Notes under the pieces: generated by a model
What the model was told of the DNA's origin: nothing
Database searches by the model: none
Seen by the model: only the letters and a program-made list of their open reading frames with translations
Shown: positions 12,387 to 25,283 of the stretch, piece by piece
Layout of the letters: every line of letters starts with the position of its first letter
Numbering within the stretch: position 1 is the first letter of the stretch
Source of the DNA: a virus
DNA: 28,001 nt
Virus record (IMG/VR): IMGVR_UViG_3300025438_000103
Location: 1 to 28,001 of that record
Direction: 5' to 3' (one strand)
Translations under genes and position numbers: made by a program

Positions 12387-13832
12387 TTAGTCATAATTAA
12401 ACTCATTTAAGTTTTTTGTACAAAGTGCATAAAATTTTTTTGCTGCACCATCTCCAGTAATGTTTGGCGAATATTCAAACGCACCATATCCATTATCATC
12501 TGCTATTGCTGTGTCTGCTAAAGCTTGAAAACCATTACCAAAATTAACTTCAAATACAGCCGCACCACCAGTATTATAATCTCCTACAAATGGAATATAA
12601 TGACCTGTTCCATTACTTGCCAAAGCAGTTAAAGCAATACCAGTTCCACTATTTTCAAGTGTACCATTTTTACTCCAATAAGTTTTCATATCTTCAAGAT
12701 CAAGATAAACTCCTAAAATATCTCCAGCAGCATATGAACTTAATGTAGCAAGAGTAATGCTACCACCAGATCCATTACCTGATTGTAATGTTCCACTTTT
12801 ATTCCAAGTATGAGTAAAAGGTGTAACACCCCCAGATTTTCCATAAGAAGAGTTTTGATGAGAAGGTGTTGCAGTTACACCAAGATTTGCTGTACCACTA
12901 GCACCTATTGAAATACAATCAACTTCAAAATACCAACGACCAGCAGATACAGCAAAAGTTGCTGTACTCATAGCTTCTGCACTAGCATCAGTTGTAAGTT
13001 TTATATTGCCTTCTGCAAAAAGAGCACTAGCATAATAATTATCTAAAGGATTCATGGTTGCAAAATTATTAGTAGGTGTGTCGGTAGTCTGGTCTACTGC
13101 TGTTAAATTATTAACTGTAAAATCATTACCATTACCTGATGTATCTGCACCTAAAGCACCGCTATCTTCAAAGTCTAAATAGAATCCGTTAGTACCAAAG
13201 GTTAATCCAGAAACATCTATTGGTTTCCATATTCCACTATCTTCATCAAATTCTCCAAAGTCTGTAGGTGCTAATGCTTGACCATCTATACCATAAACAT
13301 CAGACATGTAGCCGTCTAAATACCCTGAACTTCCTCCATAAGAACCTAAATAATAGGTATATGAACTTGTACCAAGTCTTAAGTCTTCATTTAATGAAGG
13401 ATAAATAGCTGTAACAAAAGAAGTTTCTTGAACTCCATTAACATATATTTTAACTCTATTAGAAGCTGTTGCTTGTGTAGTGTCCATAGCAACTACAATA
13501 TGATACCAAGCTGATACATCTCTAAATAATCTATTTGTAACTAAAATTATTGTGTTACTACCACCACTTCTATTACCGATACTTAGTCGTTGAGAACTAT
13601 CAAATAATATCTTTATTCTTTCATCTATAGAATAATAACTTAAGAATAATGTATTATCACCGTCAGGGTTTTGACATTTTTTAACCCATGTTGAAAAAGT
13701 TTGTATTTTTCTATTAGTCCCTGTAGTTGGAACTTTTGATAAATAATCTGAACTAGCAGAATTAAATCGTAAAGAATTATCTACTGTATAACCACCTGCT
13801 GATAGAGAGTTAGCTGGTAAGATAAAAGGCAT
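12387..13832 (-). CDS. Tail fibre protein with LamG-like and SPRY-like domains, 481 aa
   Basis: The N-terminal half (about residues 20-185) has the concanavalin/LamG pattern: FSTWVKK, then WYHIVVAMDTT with RVKIYVNGV (109-134), then YLDGYMSDVYGIDGQ. The C-terminal half (about 297-432) has the SPRY pattern: GRWYFEV, a GANLGV-like strand, and GDILGVYLDLEDMKTYWSKNG (370-390). Both folds bind sugars or proteins, so the product is a good candidate for host receptor binding. There is no cleavage or hydrolase motif. It lies one base after the stop of the 218-residue gene and belongs to a CpG-poor three-gene cassette. Domain calls are from motif recognition, not a profile search. Confidence 0.8.
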   Translation of the reverse strand: MPFILPANSLSAGGYTVDNSLRFNSASSDYLSKVPTTGTNRKIQTFSTWVKKCQNPDGDNTLFLSYYSIDERIKILFDSSQRLSIGNRSGGSNTIILVTNRLFRDVSAWYHIVVAMDTTQATASNRVKIYVNGVQETSFVTAIYPSLNEDLRLGTSSYTYYLGSYGGSSGYLDGYMSDVYGIDGQALAPTDFGEFDEDSGIWKPIDVSGLTFGTNGFYLDFEDSGALGADTSGNGNDFTVNNLTAVDQTTDTPTNNFATMNPLDNYYASALFAEGNIKLTTDASAEAMSTATFAVSAGRWYFEVDCISIGASGTANLGVTATPSHQNSSYGKSGGVTPFTHTWNKSGTLQSGNGSGGSITLATLSSYAAGDILGVYLDLEDMKTYWSKNGTLENSGTGIALTALASNGTGHYIPFVGDYNTGGAAVFEVNFGNGFQALADTAIADDNGYGAFEYSPNITGDGAAKKFYALCTKNLNEFNYD

Positions 13833-22468: not shown

Positions 22469-23443
22469 CTATACCTCCTTCATGTATTTTTTTTGTTTCG
22501 CATACTCTTCGAGTGGCACTCCTAGTTTTTTAGCAATTACAACTTCAGTAGGTGTGAGTCTGACAGTTTTGCGACTAGAATTTACACTTCGCCTTGCTGA
22601 AGCTACTTGTTGTGTCGGCCTAGTCGTATTAGTTTTTGCCGTTCCATCATTAGTATCAAATTTATGGGGAAATTCAAGTCTTATTCTTTTATCAATTTCA
22701 ACATAATATTCGTCACTTTGAGGATCATAACCTTCTTCTTCGGTTAAGGTCTTATGCAGATCAAAAGCAGTATACGTCATTGCTTTATCCGAACCAAACC
22801 ATCTATTACTAGAGGCCCAGCCTTCTGCTTTTTCATCCGGTACGTTTCTTCTAGGTTGTTGAGGGATCTCTAAATTATTCATAGTCGGAATAATAGCATC
22901 TTGTTCCTCTTTGTAAGCTTTTTGCTCTAACAATCTAGCTTCTTCGTAACCGAGACGAGAAATATCTTTTTGGATATCTACCTCTAAATTAACGTCATTT
23001 GCATCTCGCGCCTGAGCCAGTCTGGCCTTGGCACCTTCTAAAGCAGAGGCTAATTTAGATTCTCGATCTTTTAAGCTGTTGGTTTCTAAAGAAGAATATT
23101 TTTTACCTAGTTTCTCTGCAGTCTCTTTTTGAGTTCTGGCATAGGTTAAGGCTTCGTCTTTTTGACGTTCTGCTTCTCTCCATTTTTTGGTGAGTTTAGC
23201 AATTCTTCTTTGCACATCTTTACTATAAACTTCTAATTCGTCTTTCTTTCCTTCTGGCTTATCTTCTGTAGTCTCTTGCTGCTCGCTACTTGCGTCTAGA
23301 GGCGAGGGGCTAGTGACTTCTTGTACTACTTCTTGTTCTTCTTTGATTGATACTTCTTCTTCAGGTGTAGATGTTTCAATATCTACGTCTACTTCAGGTC
23401 CTGAACTATCAATATCTACCATTTTCTTTTCTTCGTCTGGCAT
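22469..23443 (-). CDS. Capsid scaffolding protein, 324 aa
   Basis: A 324-residue protein with the classic scaffold layout: a very acidic disordered N-terminus (residues 1-65), a long charged coiled-coil region with RIAKLTKKWREAERQKDEAL and KRDE-rich helices (about 80-185), a linker, and a basic C-terminal part with VRLTPTEVVIAKKLGVPLEEYAKQ (about 294-317). That end motif recurs in phage scaffolds and is thought to contact the capsid shell. The gene lies two genes before the capsid gene, as expected, with an AGGAGG ribosome site. No separate protease is visible, so removal would be by exit through the shell or by an unseen protease. Confidence 0.8.
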   Translation of the reverse strand: MPDEEKKMVDIDSSGPEVDVDIETSTPEEEVSIKEEQEVVQEVTSPSPLDASSEQQETTEDKPEGKKDELEVYSKDVQRRIAKLTKKWREAERQKDEALTYARTQKETAEKLGKKYSSLETNSLKDRESKLASALEGAKARLAQARDANDVNLEVDIQKDISRLGYEEARLLEQKAYKEEQDAIIPTMNNLEIPQQPRRNVPDEKAEGWASSNRWFGSDKAMTYTAFDLHKTLTEEEGYDPQSDEYYVEIDKRIRLEFPHKFDTNDGTAKTNTTRPTQQVASARRSVNSSRKTVRLTPTEVVIAKKLGVPLEEYAKQKKYMKEV

Positions 23444-23457
23444 AGTGTCCTCCTATG

Positions 23458-23955
23458 TTAAATGTAATGCAACACAGATTCAGGATCTTGTACAGTTCCT
23501 AAAACTTCGTCGTCGTTGAGAATTCGGATCTCTCCGCCTTCTATTGGTAGTCGTGATCCTGCATATCTTGCAAAGATCACCCAATCTCCTTTTTTACACC
23601 AAGGATCTTCAAATTTATCTTTGTCCTTGTATGCTAATGGACCCATTTTTAAAACGTAACCACAGTTGGTTGCGATTCTTAATCGGTCTAACGATTCTTG
23701 TGCGATAATTAATCCACCTTTAGTTTTTTCTTTAGGGGTAAAAGGTAGAACTAGTATTCTCCAACCAGATGGTTCTGGAAGTTGATCTATAACTGGTTCA
23801 ATAGACTCAGGGTTAAGGGGTTCCTTTTCTGGTGCTATGTTTTTTTCTTCTTGTTTTTCTTTTTCGTATTTCTCTTGGAGTCCAAGTTTAATCTTTGGTA
23901 CTTCCTGATCCGAAAGGGACGATGGTATCGTCTCCTGATTGTTCTTGTCCGTCAT
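23458..23955 (-). CDS. GroES-like co-chaperonin with charged N-terminal extension
   Basis: A 165-residue protein. Residues about 60-163 match the GroES/Cpn10 fold: GWRILVLPF (first strand), then the mobile loop KEKTKGGLII (75-84) with the hydrophobic tripeptide LII where GroES has IVL for binding GroEL, then GYVLKMGP, WCKKGDWVIFARYAG and IRILNDDEVLGTV at the end. Cpn10 proteins are about 95-100 residues; the first 58 residues are an added, highly charged extension. It lies just before scaffold and capsid, so it likely works with the host GroEL to fold the capsid protein, like T4 gp31. It begins 68 bases inside the upstream gene, with AAGGAG five bases before the ATG; no later ATG would keep the fold. 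Confidence 0.85.
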   Translation of the reverse strand: MTDKNNQETIPSSLSDQEVPKIKLGLQEKYEKEKQEEKNIAPEKEPLNPESIEPVIDQLPEPSGWRILVLPFTPKEKTKGGLIIAQESLDRLRIATNCGYVLKMGPLAYKDKDKFEDPWCKKGDWVIFARYAGSRLPIEGGEIRILNDDEVLGTVQDPESVLHYI

Positions 23956-24142
23956 TTTGCTCCTTCTTATTTAGCAGGTTAGAGATTTCCTGTAATATAT
24001 ATTGATAGGCATGTGCCTGACCTAGTAAATACTTGTATTTATCCATATTGTCAACACCACCTGTAATCATAGTATCTCCAATGTTTTGATATAACTTACG
24101 TAGGGCTTTCTGTACTTGTTGTACGAGTATTAGGTCGTCCAT
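23888..24142 (-). CDS. Small helical protein, 84 aa
   Basis: An 84-residue protein. It is a helical hairpin-like sequence (about 1-60: DDLILVQQVQKALRKLYQN, then YKYLLGQAHAYQYILQEISNLL) with a charged, Gly-rich tail. It starts directly after the stop of the basic 93-residue gene (TAAATG). The last 23 codons overlap the start of the GroES-like gene in another frame. I do not recognise a family; similar short helical proteins accompany portal and scaffold genes in many phages. Confidence 0.65.
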   Translation of the reverse strand: MDDLILVQQVQKALRKLYQNIGDTMITGGVDNMDKYKYLLGQAHAYQYILQEISNLLNKKEQNDGQEQSGDDTIVPFGSGSTKD

Positions 24143-24424
24143 TTAGCAGTTCCACTTTCTTAGAGACTTATTAATTCTGCTATCCGGGTCTCTGGCCGTT
24201 TTTGCAGAGGTACGTTTTGACTTCATACCACTCATTCTAGCACAAAAAGACTTACGTCTATTTGCTGCTTTAGAACCTTTTTTTAATTTAGATGGCTTCG
24301 TAGTTACGGCCGTCTTTAATTTAGATCCAGGGTTAGCTGCTCTATAAGAAGCAACACCTTTTTTATTTAATCCACCGGATTTAGACTTTCCTTCTTTTCT
24401 AGTCCAGGCTGCTGTTCTAGCCAT
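24143..24424 (-). CDS. DUF6321-like highly basic protein, 93 aa
   Basis: A 93-residue protein dominated by Lys, Arg, Ser and Ala. The pattern WTRKEGKSKSGGLNKKGVASY near the N-terminus and RRKSFCARMSGMKSK, DPDSRINKSLRKW near the end match what I recall as DUF6321, a phage-associated family without a known function. It has two Cys. The strong positive charge suggests binding to DNA or RNA, but no specific fold is evident. It is the fifth of a run of small basic genes after the portal. Confidence 0.75.
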   Translation of the reverse strand: MARTAAWTRKEGKSKSGGLNKKGVASYRAANPGSKLKTAVTTKPSKLKKGSKAANRRKSFCARMSGMKSKRTSAKTARDPDSRINKSLRKWNC

Positions 24425-24426
24425 TA

Positions 24427-24534
24427 TTAGCCCTTCATTTTTTTAATATGTTTTTTAATTATTTTAGCTTGTTTAGCATGTGTCTTCGATGCTTTTTTCA
24501 AGCCTGTAACTACTTTCTTTAATACTTTTACCAT
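24427..24534 (-). CDS. Tiny Lys-rich protein, 35 aa
   Basis: A 35-residue frame, ATG at 24534 sharing its A with the TAA of the upstream gene. Fifteen of 35 residues are Lys or Arg, all the rest suited to a single amphipathic helix. It has no separate ribosome site of note, so translation is probably by reinitiation. It is too short to assign, but the unbroken chain of overlapping frames on both sides supports it being real. Confidence 0.6.
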   Translation of the reverse strand: MVKVLKKVVTGLKKASKTHAKQAKIIKKHIKKMKG

Positions 24535-24695
24535 TATTTTTTCTTTTTAGGTTTTTTAGCAGTTTTTGCTGATCTTACAAAATTAGCTTTTGTAGGAGCA
24601 CCTTTGGTTCCAGGCTTTCTCATTGTTTCTCCTGAACCTGCTTTTATTCTTTTTCTTTTTGCTTGTATGTTTGCGTATAATCCTCGTTTAGCCAT
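24534..24695 (-). CDS. Small basic protein, GLYANI-type, 53 aa
   Basis: A 53-residue protein starting AKRGLYANIQAKRKRIKAG, then SGETMRKPGTKGAPT, and ending in KKPKKKK. This pattern is one I have seen as a short protein in many aquatic phages, usually near portal and capsid genes. Function unknown; binding to nucleic acid by its charge is possible. TAATG junctions at both ends; the upstream one follows the slippery run AAAAAAA. Confidence 0.7.
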   Translation of the reverse strand: MAKRGLYANIQAKRKRIKAGSGETMRKPGTKGAPTKANFVRSAKTAKKPKKKK

Positions 24696-24704
24696 TATTT
24701 TTTT
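24686..24704 (-). repeat. 19-base direct repeat, copy 2, at a gene junction
   Basis: AAAAAAATAATGGCTAAAC on the minus strand, identical to the copy at 24772-24790. Each copy holds the end of one small gene, the TAATG overlap and the first codons of the next, so the pair flanks exactly one gene (the 28-residue gene). Recombination between copies would delete or duplicate that gene cleanly. Confidence 0.85.
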
Positions 24705-24781
24705 CTTTTAGGTTTAGATTTTACTATTTTATCTTTTAAAAACTTAGGTAAAGTTTTTTGTTTTTTTGTTAGTTTAGCCAT
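24695..24781 (-). CDS. Tiny basic protein, 28 aa
   Basis: A 28-residue frame with KLTKKQKTLPKFLKDKI, a motif I recognise from short phage proteins near the portal and capsid genes, followed by a KSKPKRKK tail. Flanked on both sides by TAATG overlaps and by the two copies of a 19-base direct repeat. Its last codons are AGA AAA AAA TAA, which contain a slippery A_AAA_AAA in the phase needed for a -1 shift into the next gene. Unknown function. Confidence 0.65.
   Translation of the reverse strand: MAKLTKKQKTLPKFLKDKIVKSKPKRKK
24698..24704 (-). other. Candidate -1 frameshift heptamer A_AAA_AAA (28 aa to 53 aa genes)
   Basis: The seven A residues lie directly before the TAA at 24695-24697, split in the zero frame as A AAA AAA. 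A slip of one base back would continue through ATA ATG into the frame of the 53-residue gene, bypassing the stop. Confidence 0.4.
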
Positions 24782-24790
24782 TATTTTTTT
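24772..24790 (-). repeat. 19-base direct repeat, copy 1, at a gene junction
   Basis: Identical 19-base copy of the sequence at 24686-24704, 86 bases away. It spans the last codons of the Cys-rich gene and the first codons of the 28-residue gene. Confidence 0.85.
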
Positions 24791-24891
24791 GCCTCTTTTT
24801 TACAGTTACATTCATGTGCACACACACATTGTGTAATACCAAATACTTTACACACTAATTCACAAAGTTTTCTTTTAATTTTTTTAAACAT
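24781..24891 (-). CDS. Small Cys-rich protein, 36 aa
   Basis: A 36-residue frame starting FKKIKRKLCELVC and having six Cys (10, 14, 22, 24, 28, 30) and one His (26), in the order C-x3-C-x7-C-x-C-x3-C-x-C. This density suggests metal binding or disulfides; such a pattern is not typical of a chance frame. Its ATG overlaps the TAA of the membrane protein gene. The last codons GCA AAA AAA TAA contain a slippery A_AAA_AAA. No family is recognised with certainty. Confidence 0.65.
   Translation of the reverse strand: MFKKIKRKLCELVCKVFGITQCVCAHECNCKKEAKK
24784..24790 (-). other. Candidate -1 frameshift heptamer A_AAA_AAA (Cys-rich to 28 aa genes)
   Basis: Seven A residues in the phase A AAA AAA directly before the TAA at 24781-24783; a -1 slip would read ATA ATG and join the Cys-rich peptide to the 28-residue protein. 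Confidence 0.4.
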
Positions 24892-25283
24892 TATTTTTTA
24901 CTCCCGTTTGTTTTAATTATATCGGTAGCTTTAATTCCATAAATGGCTGCAACCACAGAAATCCAAAGTCCTGTTATCCACCAAGGCATACCATCCAATT
25001 TGTCAAAATACAAGTCTAGCTTTTTACCAATATCTTCGTCTTCTGCAAATACAGAATACCCTAATAAAAATAAAGGGCTTGAAAGCACTAATAAAACGAA
25101 TTCGTCTTTCCAATCGCCTTTTTGATGTTCCATTATTTTGCCAGAGTATTCAATATCTCCACGTTTCATTTTTTCGGCGTGAAATAATTGAGCTTCTGAC
25201 ATAGCAATCTTAGTTGCTTGTCTATTTTTGTAAATTTCGGAACCAGCTTTAAAAGCTGTACCTAACAGACTCCAGGGAAACAT
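24891..25283 (-). CDS. Two-helix membrane protein, holin candidate, 130 aa
   Basis: A 130-residue protein. The first 60 residues are amphipathic and charged, with HAEKMKRGDIEYSGKIMEHQKGDWKD. Hydrophobic helices lie at about 61-79 and 101-117, separated by a 20-residue acidic loop (AEDEDIGKKLDLYFDKLDG), and a basic tail follows. This layout, seen in many marine phages just after the portal gene, fits a small inner membrane protein such as a holin, but no endolysin is nearby, so the role is open. Starts three bases after the 50-residue gene, ends in a TAATG overlap. Confidence 0.75.
   Translation of the reverse strand: MFPWSLLGTAFKAGSEIYKNRQATKIAMSEAQLFHAEKMKRGDIEYSGKIMEHQKGDWKDEFVLLVLSSPLFLLGYSVFAEDEDIGKKLDLYFDKLDGMPWWITGLWISVVAAIYGIKATDIIKTNGSKK

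Follow-up and report, generated by a model that had tools for sequence, protein, structure and literature searches.

The window analysed here, 28,001 nucleotides of the IMG/VR virus record IMGVR_UViG_3300025438_000103, encodes a phage GroES/Cpn10 whose N-terminal extension is a real, lineage-specific addition under purifying selection. The protein itself is known, being already annotated in relatives. What is new here is that the extension has an internal structure: an (A/G)LxxK(Y/W) helix, then a variable linker, then a conserved pre-barrel segment. Taken as a whole, the gene probably supplies a GroES lid for host GroEL that aids the folding of virion proteins and that bears a lineage-specific N-terminal tail. 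Phage-encoded GroES genes recur in marine viruses and, to our knowledge, only the gp31-type phage proteins have been studied in depth so far.

Table 1. Features of the GroES locus in the window (aa, amino acids; residues are those of the GroES-like protein)
Feature	Position	Strand	Basis
GroES-like co-chaperonin gene	23458..23955	-	ORF; Pfam Cpn10 and PHROG 3188; AlphaFold2 Cpn10 barrel
Shine-Dalgarno AAGGAG ahead of ATG	23960..23965	-	read from sequence
N-terminal extension, residues 1-58	23782..23955	-	outside Cpn10 match; purifying selection; absent from GroES
Overlap of 68 nt, upstream gene end with GroES codons 1-23	23888..23955	-	ORF coordinates
Motif GLQEKY, residues 25-30, opening predicted helix 25-38	23866..23883	-	outside gene overlap
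Conserved pre-barrel segment LNPESI...QLP, residues 47-60	23776..23817	-	alignment; dN/dS 0.19-0.25
Cpn10 barrel domain, residues 62-154	23494..23772	-	profile match; structural matches
Hydrophobic tripeptide LII of the mobile loop, residues 82-84	23704..23712	-	aligned with GroES GG-hydrophobic tripeptide
Family-specific C-terminal tail, residues 156-165, QDPESVLHYI	23461..23490	-	beyond Cpn10 match
Small upstream helical protein, 84 aa	23888..24142	-	PHROG 32603 (function unassigned)
Scaffold-like gene, directly after GroES	22469..23443	-	PHROG 28737; weak head scaffolding PHROG match, E 0.003
Major capsid protein, 304 aa	20431..21345	-	Pfam Phage_capsid_4 / Mu gpT; PHROG 371 major head protein

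The ORF, whose coordinates include the stop codon, starts with ATG and specifies a product of 165 aa. Residues 62-154 match Pfam Cpn10 (PF00166; 42.8 bits against a cut-off of 21.1, E 5e-11) and residues 61-156 match PHROG 3188 'co-chaperonin GroES' (E 3e-18), the nearest solved relatives in sequence profile matches being bacterial and plastid Cpn10 proteins. Since P62, the first Cpn10-aligned residue, pairs with residue 5 of bacterial GroES 3nx6, about 57 residues precede the normal GroES start, in agreement with the roughly 58 extra residues proposed in the initial annotation. The extension is also charged, as had been stated (38% D/E/K/R versus 29% in the rest of the protein). A wrong start codon can be ruled out, because relatives share both the Shine-Dalgarno site and the place of the start: of 85 family members examined, 84 have an SD-like site ahead of the GroES start. 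No alternative ATG was found within the extension of the window protein. A bacterial origin was likewise rejected, since all four contig matches, although placed in MAG bins, are probably of phage origin. These contigs carry a phage-type GroES and are binned as SAR86, a Pacearchaeota archaeon, an alphaproteobacterium and an Armatimonadetes bacterium, but they look misbinned; since they are probably phage, they yield no host information.

Relatives from IMG/VR form three sets, namely clade A, to which the window belongs (64 unique proteins), the DSL-LC04-like clade B (66) and the HTVC023P-like clade C (38). The Cpn10 fold asserted in the initial annotation is borne out by the profile matches and by structure prediction, which, as stated there, could have refuted it: an AlphaFold2 model of the window protein (mean pLDDT 69, pTM 0.59) contains a Cpn10 beta-barrel. 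Its best structural match is 8wuc_a (Z 10.4, rmsd 3.1, 93 residues); E. coli GroES 1aon_O scores Z 8.4, and T4 gp31 (1g31) scores Z 7.1 at about 9% identity on the structural alignment. For a clade B model GroES chains also rank first (1wnr_G, Z 9.5), with gp31 at Z 8.3. The GroEL-binding mobile loop that had been recognised in GGLII (residues 80-84) does align with GroES mobile loops, and relatives keep it, the tripeptide being hydrophobic in every clade A and clade C protein and in most of clade B; seven clade B proteins have GGIAL at the loop. Alignment gaps indicate a loop that exceeds that of GroES by about four residues, with a four-residue insertion after the tripeptide, and the roof segment, from the mobile loop to the next strand, has GroES length. 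In the clade B model the mobile loop (residues 60-79) is the only long low-confidence region (pLDDT below 50), as would be expected of a disordered mobile loop. The window protein would presumably form a heptamer and bind GroEL. At the other end of the protein, P158, E159, L162 and H163 are nearly invariant among 70 aligned proteins. This C-terminal (D/N)PE..LH signature, nearly invariant across clades A-C, is no part of GroES and was absent from the initial annotation.

The extension spans 43-60 aa in clade A, 43-56 aa in clade B and 38-39 aa in clade C, that of the window protein (58 aa) being among the longest. The motif [AGSTP]L..K[YW] is present in 64/64 clade A unique proteins and in 62/64 clade B unique proteins with a locatable barrel start, compared with 0.4% of shuffled extensions; the two clade B exceptions are near variants (ALERKR and ELERKW), and clade C does not have the motif (0/37). 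These counts are not independent because clade members are related. However, clades A and B are only about 50% identical overall, yet they have the motif in common at the same relative place, and it is this shared position, rather than the raw counts, that is informative. The helix that the motif opens in the window model is predicted with modest confidence (pLDDT about 56-62), and the clade B model has a more confident one at residues 5-17 (pLDDT about 72-74). Further along, the conserved pre-barrel stretch (residues 47-60) of the window model is predicted to be ordered, with pLDDT about 83-86 over residues 51-70. It was also considered whether the motif is common to neighbouring proteins, but the sole non-GroES match, ALEDKYNSE in a 68-aa protein encoded at three clade C loci, is taken as chance.

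Selection on the extension was gauged by Nei-Gojobori dN/dS, computed pairwise within the closest clade, where the pairs are related and provide no independent error estimate; all values are below 1. In the window's clade, extension residues 24-58 give 0.36 for all pairs and 0.26 for close pairs, the barrel gives 0.12 and 0.06, and the linker (residues 35-46) is looser, at 0.62 and 0.44. Together with the recurring SD site and start, these values indicate that the extension is translated and constrained, though less so than the barrel. This front tail with its small conserved helix appears to have gone undescribed so far. No description of the motif was found in a literature search that did not take in the main paper on viral chaperonins, and nothing relevant was found on phage co-chaperonins with an N-terminal extension. 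No structural match covers the N-terminal part of the extension in either the window or the clade B model, which is no proof of a new fold.

The gene lies in a conserved cassette with the order portal, small helical gene, GroES, scaffold-like gene, two structural-region genes and capsid, which recurs with small variations in HTVC027P, HTVC023P, 023Pt_psg01, DSL-LC04, CRP-902, Caulobacter phage RW and others. Thus, of the placement before scaffold and capsid proposed in the initial annotation, the first part stands, whereas two genes separate the scaffold from the capsid. The scaffold assignment reflects position, the weak PHROG match and composition. An ORF of 100 aa or more begins at most 120 nt downstream of GroES in all 204 loci with enough sequence, and an upstream ORF is present in 212 of 217 GroES loci. 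Across clades A-C, and also in distant phages, similar small genes hold the PHROG 32603 slot as a conserved cassette companion. Database labels in the scaffold position vary: the scaffold-like protein of 023Pt_psg01 (12496-13458) is annotated as 'kinesin-like protein', a label that its charged coiled-coil composition probably explains, and the corresponding protein of MW202675 (2868-3740) as 'endopeptidase clp ATP-binding subunit C', which looks like a misannotation because its composition suggests a scaffold. Upstream of the small helical gene, positions 24143-24424 (-) encode a strongly basic protein of 93 aa that contains DUF6321 (PF19846, E 3e-18), a domain that several larger phage proteins (PHROGs 727, 3477 and 30733) carry as their C-terminus. 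A run of very short lysine-rich ORFs (24425-24890, -) lies between it and the gene at 24891-25283, and 023Pt_psg01 has several tiny annotated genes at the matching place.

The capsid of the window is 76-82% identical to those of MW574966, HTVC027P and HTVC023P. Cpn10 was detected in all 20 tested phage records with this capsid lineage (14 by Pfam search, six by tblastn), a descriptive count to which no probability is attached for want of a baseline for Cpn10 in unrelated phages. There are 21 such records in all; MW202604, the one left, matches the Cpn10-carrying MW202601 in length and in capsid coordinates. In the two most distant records, BK063670 and MW202601, Cpn10 is sited away from the capsid cassette; BK063670.1 is a virus assigned to Methanomicrobiales whose capsid is a distant relative of that of the window. 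Descent of the whole cassette, without physical dependence, could also produce the co-occurrence of Cpn10 and capsid. A phage-encoded GroEL partner was considered and rejected, since GroEL/Cpn60 was found neither in the window record nor in any of the 14 Cpn10-bearing phage records searched with Pfam. With Cpn10 in every record tested and GroEL in none of those searched, the host presumably supplies GroEL, which supports the dependence on host GroEL that had been proposed. Since the cassette regularly carries a GroES along with the capsid but no GroEL, dependence of this capsid on host GroEL is testable.

Why the extension is maintained can be read in several ways. It is possible, if rather doubtful, that it is mostly an incidental disordered tail, with the conserved residues explained by the gene overlap and the upstream C-terminus and with all function residing in the barrel. 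In clade A the upstream gene extends 41-68 nt into the GroES gene, 79 of 80 members have the stop codon of that gene inside the codons for PKxK, and synonymous change is depressed in the overlap (close pairs: 0.24, versus 0.43 elsewhere in the extension). Conservation of EVPKIK/PKxK is therefore owed in part to the upstream stop codon. The weak constraint on the linker and the several relatives without an extension are also in keeping with an incidental tail. However, the (A/G)LxxK(Y/W) motif and the pre-barrel segment are conserved outside the overlap, and clade B keeps the motif without any gene overlap. Thus, the overlapping gene cannot by itself account for the conservation of LxxKY.

The initial annotation had suggested that the extension could recruit substrate; in that reading it would specifically bind the capsid protein (or the scaffold) of the phage and hand it over to GroEL. 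GroES adjoins the scaffold and is near the capsid in all loci examined, the extension is conserved and charged, and its helix, in which some residues are conserved, could plausibly serve for docking. However, the HTVC023P capsid is 75.7% identical to that of the window, and its GroES has a different extension without the motif. Moreover, QDWS535 and ct2G2228 (capsids 50% and 43.5% identical) keep the cassette with essentially no extension: at its position these two and ct2os315 have from 0 to about 8 residues. Since the same capsid lineage occurs without the motif or without the whole extension, recruitment of the capsid is disfavoured and we regard it as unlikely. It is also conceivable, though we lean against it, that the protein is a general-purpose GroES substitute serving many phage proteins during infection rather than the capsid specifically. 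T4 gp31 replaces GroES generally besides helping gp23 (PMC6318259), and neither the roof, which resembles that of GroES, nor the short capsid points to a special cage: at 304 aa, the capsid protein is small enough for an ordinary GroES cage and may do without a specialised lid. Against such a general role stand the close association with a single capsid lineage and the fixed place in the head cassette.

The explanation that we favour is that the phage co-chaperonin would cap host GroEL through its mobile loop, and that this lid would help the virion proteins of the phage to fold. Its likeliest main client would be the capsid protein, whose gene belongs to the same cassette, and we give about even chances to the capsid protein being a client of this GroES. 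Of the dedicated capsid folding partner envisaged in the initial annotation, the link with capsid assembly is upheld by the conserved order of the genes and by the joint occurrence with a single capsid lineage, and the identity of the client is plausible. The tail would comprise a flexible stretch, the short (A/G)LxxK(Y/W) helix, a variable linker and an ordered segment lying against the barrel. Our best guess, held tentatively, is that the extension works as a docking peptide on a tether, which would engage a partner from phage or host and would not itself belong to the lid. A co-chaperonin is normally an unselective lid, and we know of no GroES that selects its clients by a tethered helix; that the extension is a substrate- or partner-recruiting arm of this kind strikes us as very unlikely. 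If the tail does recruit a partner, a co-chaperonin can be given specificity.

The closest known counterparts are the GroES proteins of HTVC023P-type pelagiphages (HTVC027P gp55, 023Pt_psg01, HTVC023P gp36), in which GroES is one of 13 core genes (PMC9599517). They belong to the same family, with the same gene order and capsid lineage, and the order in the window matches that in MW574966, HTVC027P and HTVC023P, as expected of an orthologue. The window protein is 69.5% identical to the 023Pt_psg01 GroES over the full length and 65.7% identical to that of HTVC027P over residues 57-163, and both have the extension motif, unlike HTVC023P GroES. Like bacterial GroES/Cpn10, the window protein has the barrel, the GG-hydrophobic tripeptide and a roof segment of similar length; it differs in the additional N-terminal residues, the insertion after the tripeptide and the conserved C-terminal tail. 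T4 gp31 is likewise a phage-encoded Cpn10 fold that works with host GroEL and is linked to capsid folding, being needed for gp23 (PMC6318259). However, gp31 has neither the extension nor roof loops, and its mobile loop counts 22 residues versus 16 in GroES (PMC6318259), whereas the window protein keeps a roof segment and exceeds the GroES loop by only about four residues. The window protein is therefore closer to bacterial GroES (Z 10.4) than to gp31 (Z 7.1), and the likeness to gp31 raised in the initial annotation would hold at most for function. A viral GroES with a comparable extension is already in UniProt as a database entry (A0A221S4I5, BFVD; 155 aa, from an uncultured virus); it shares 65% identity with a clade B relative along almost the whole protein, including the extension, which we did not find discussed in the literature. 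Chloroplast Cpn20 (7ekq), a profile match, also carries extra sequence ahead of a Cpn10 domain, but there the extra part is a second Cpn10 domain, whereas in the window protein it is a tail with a short helix.
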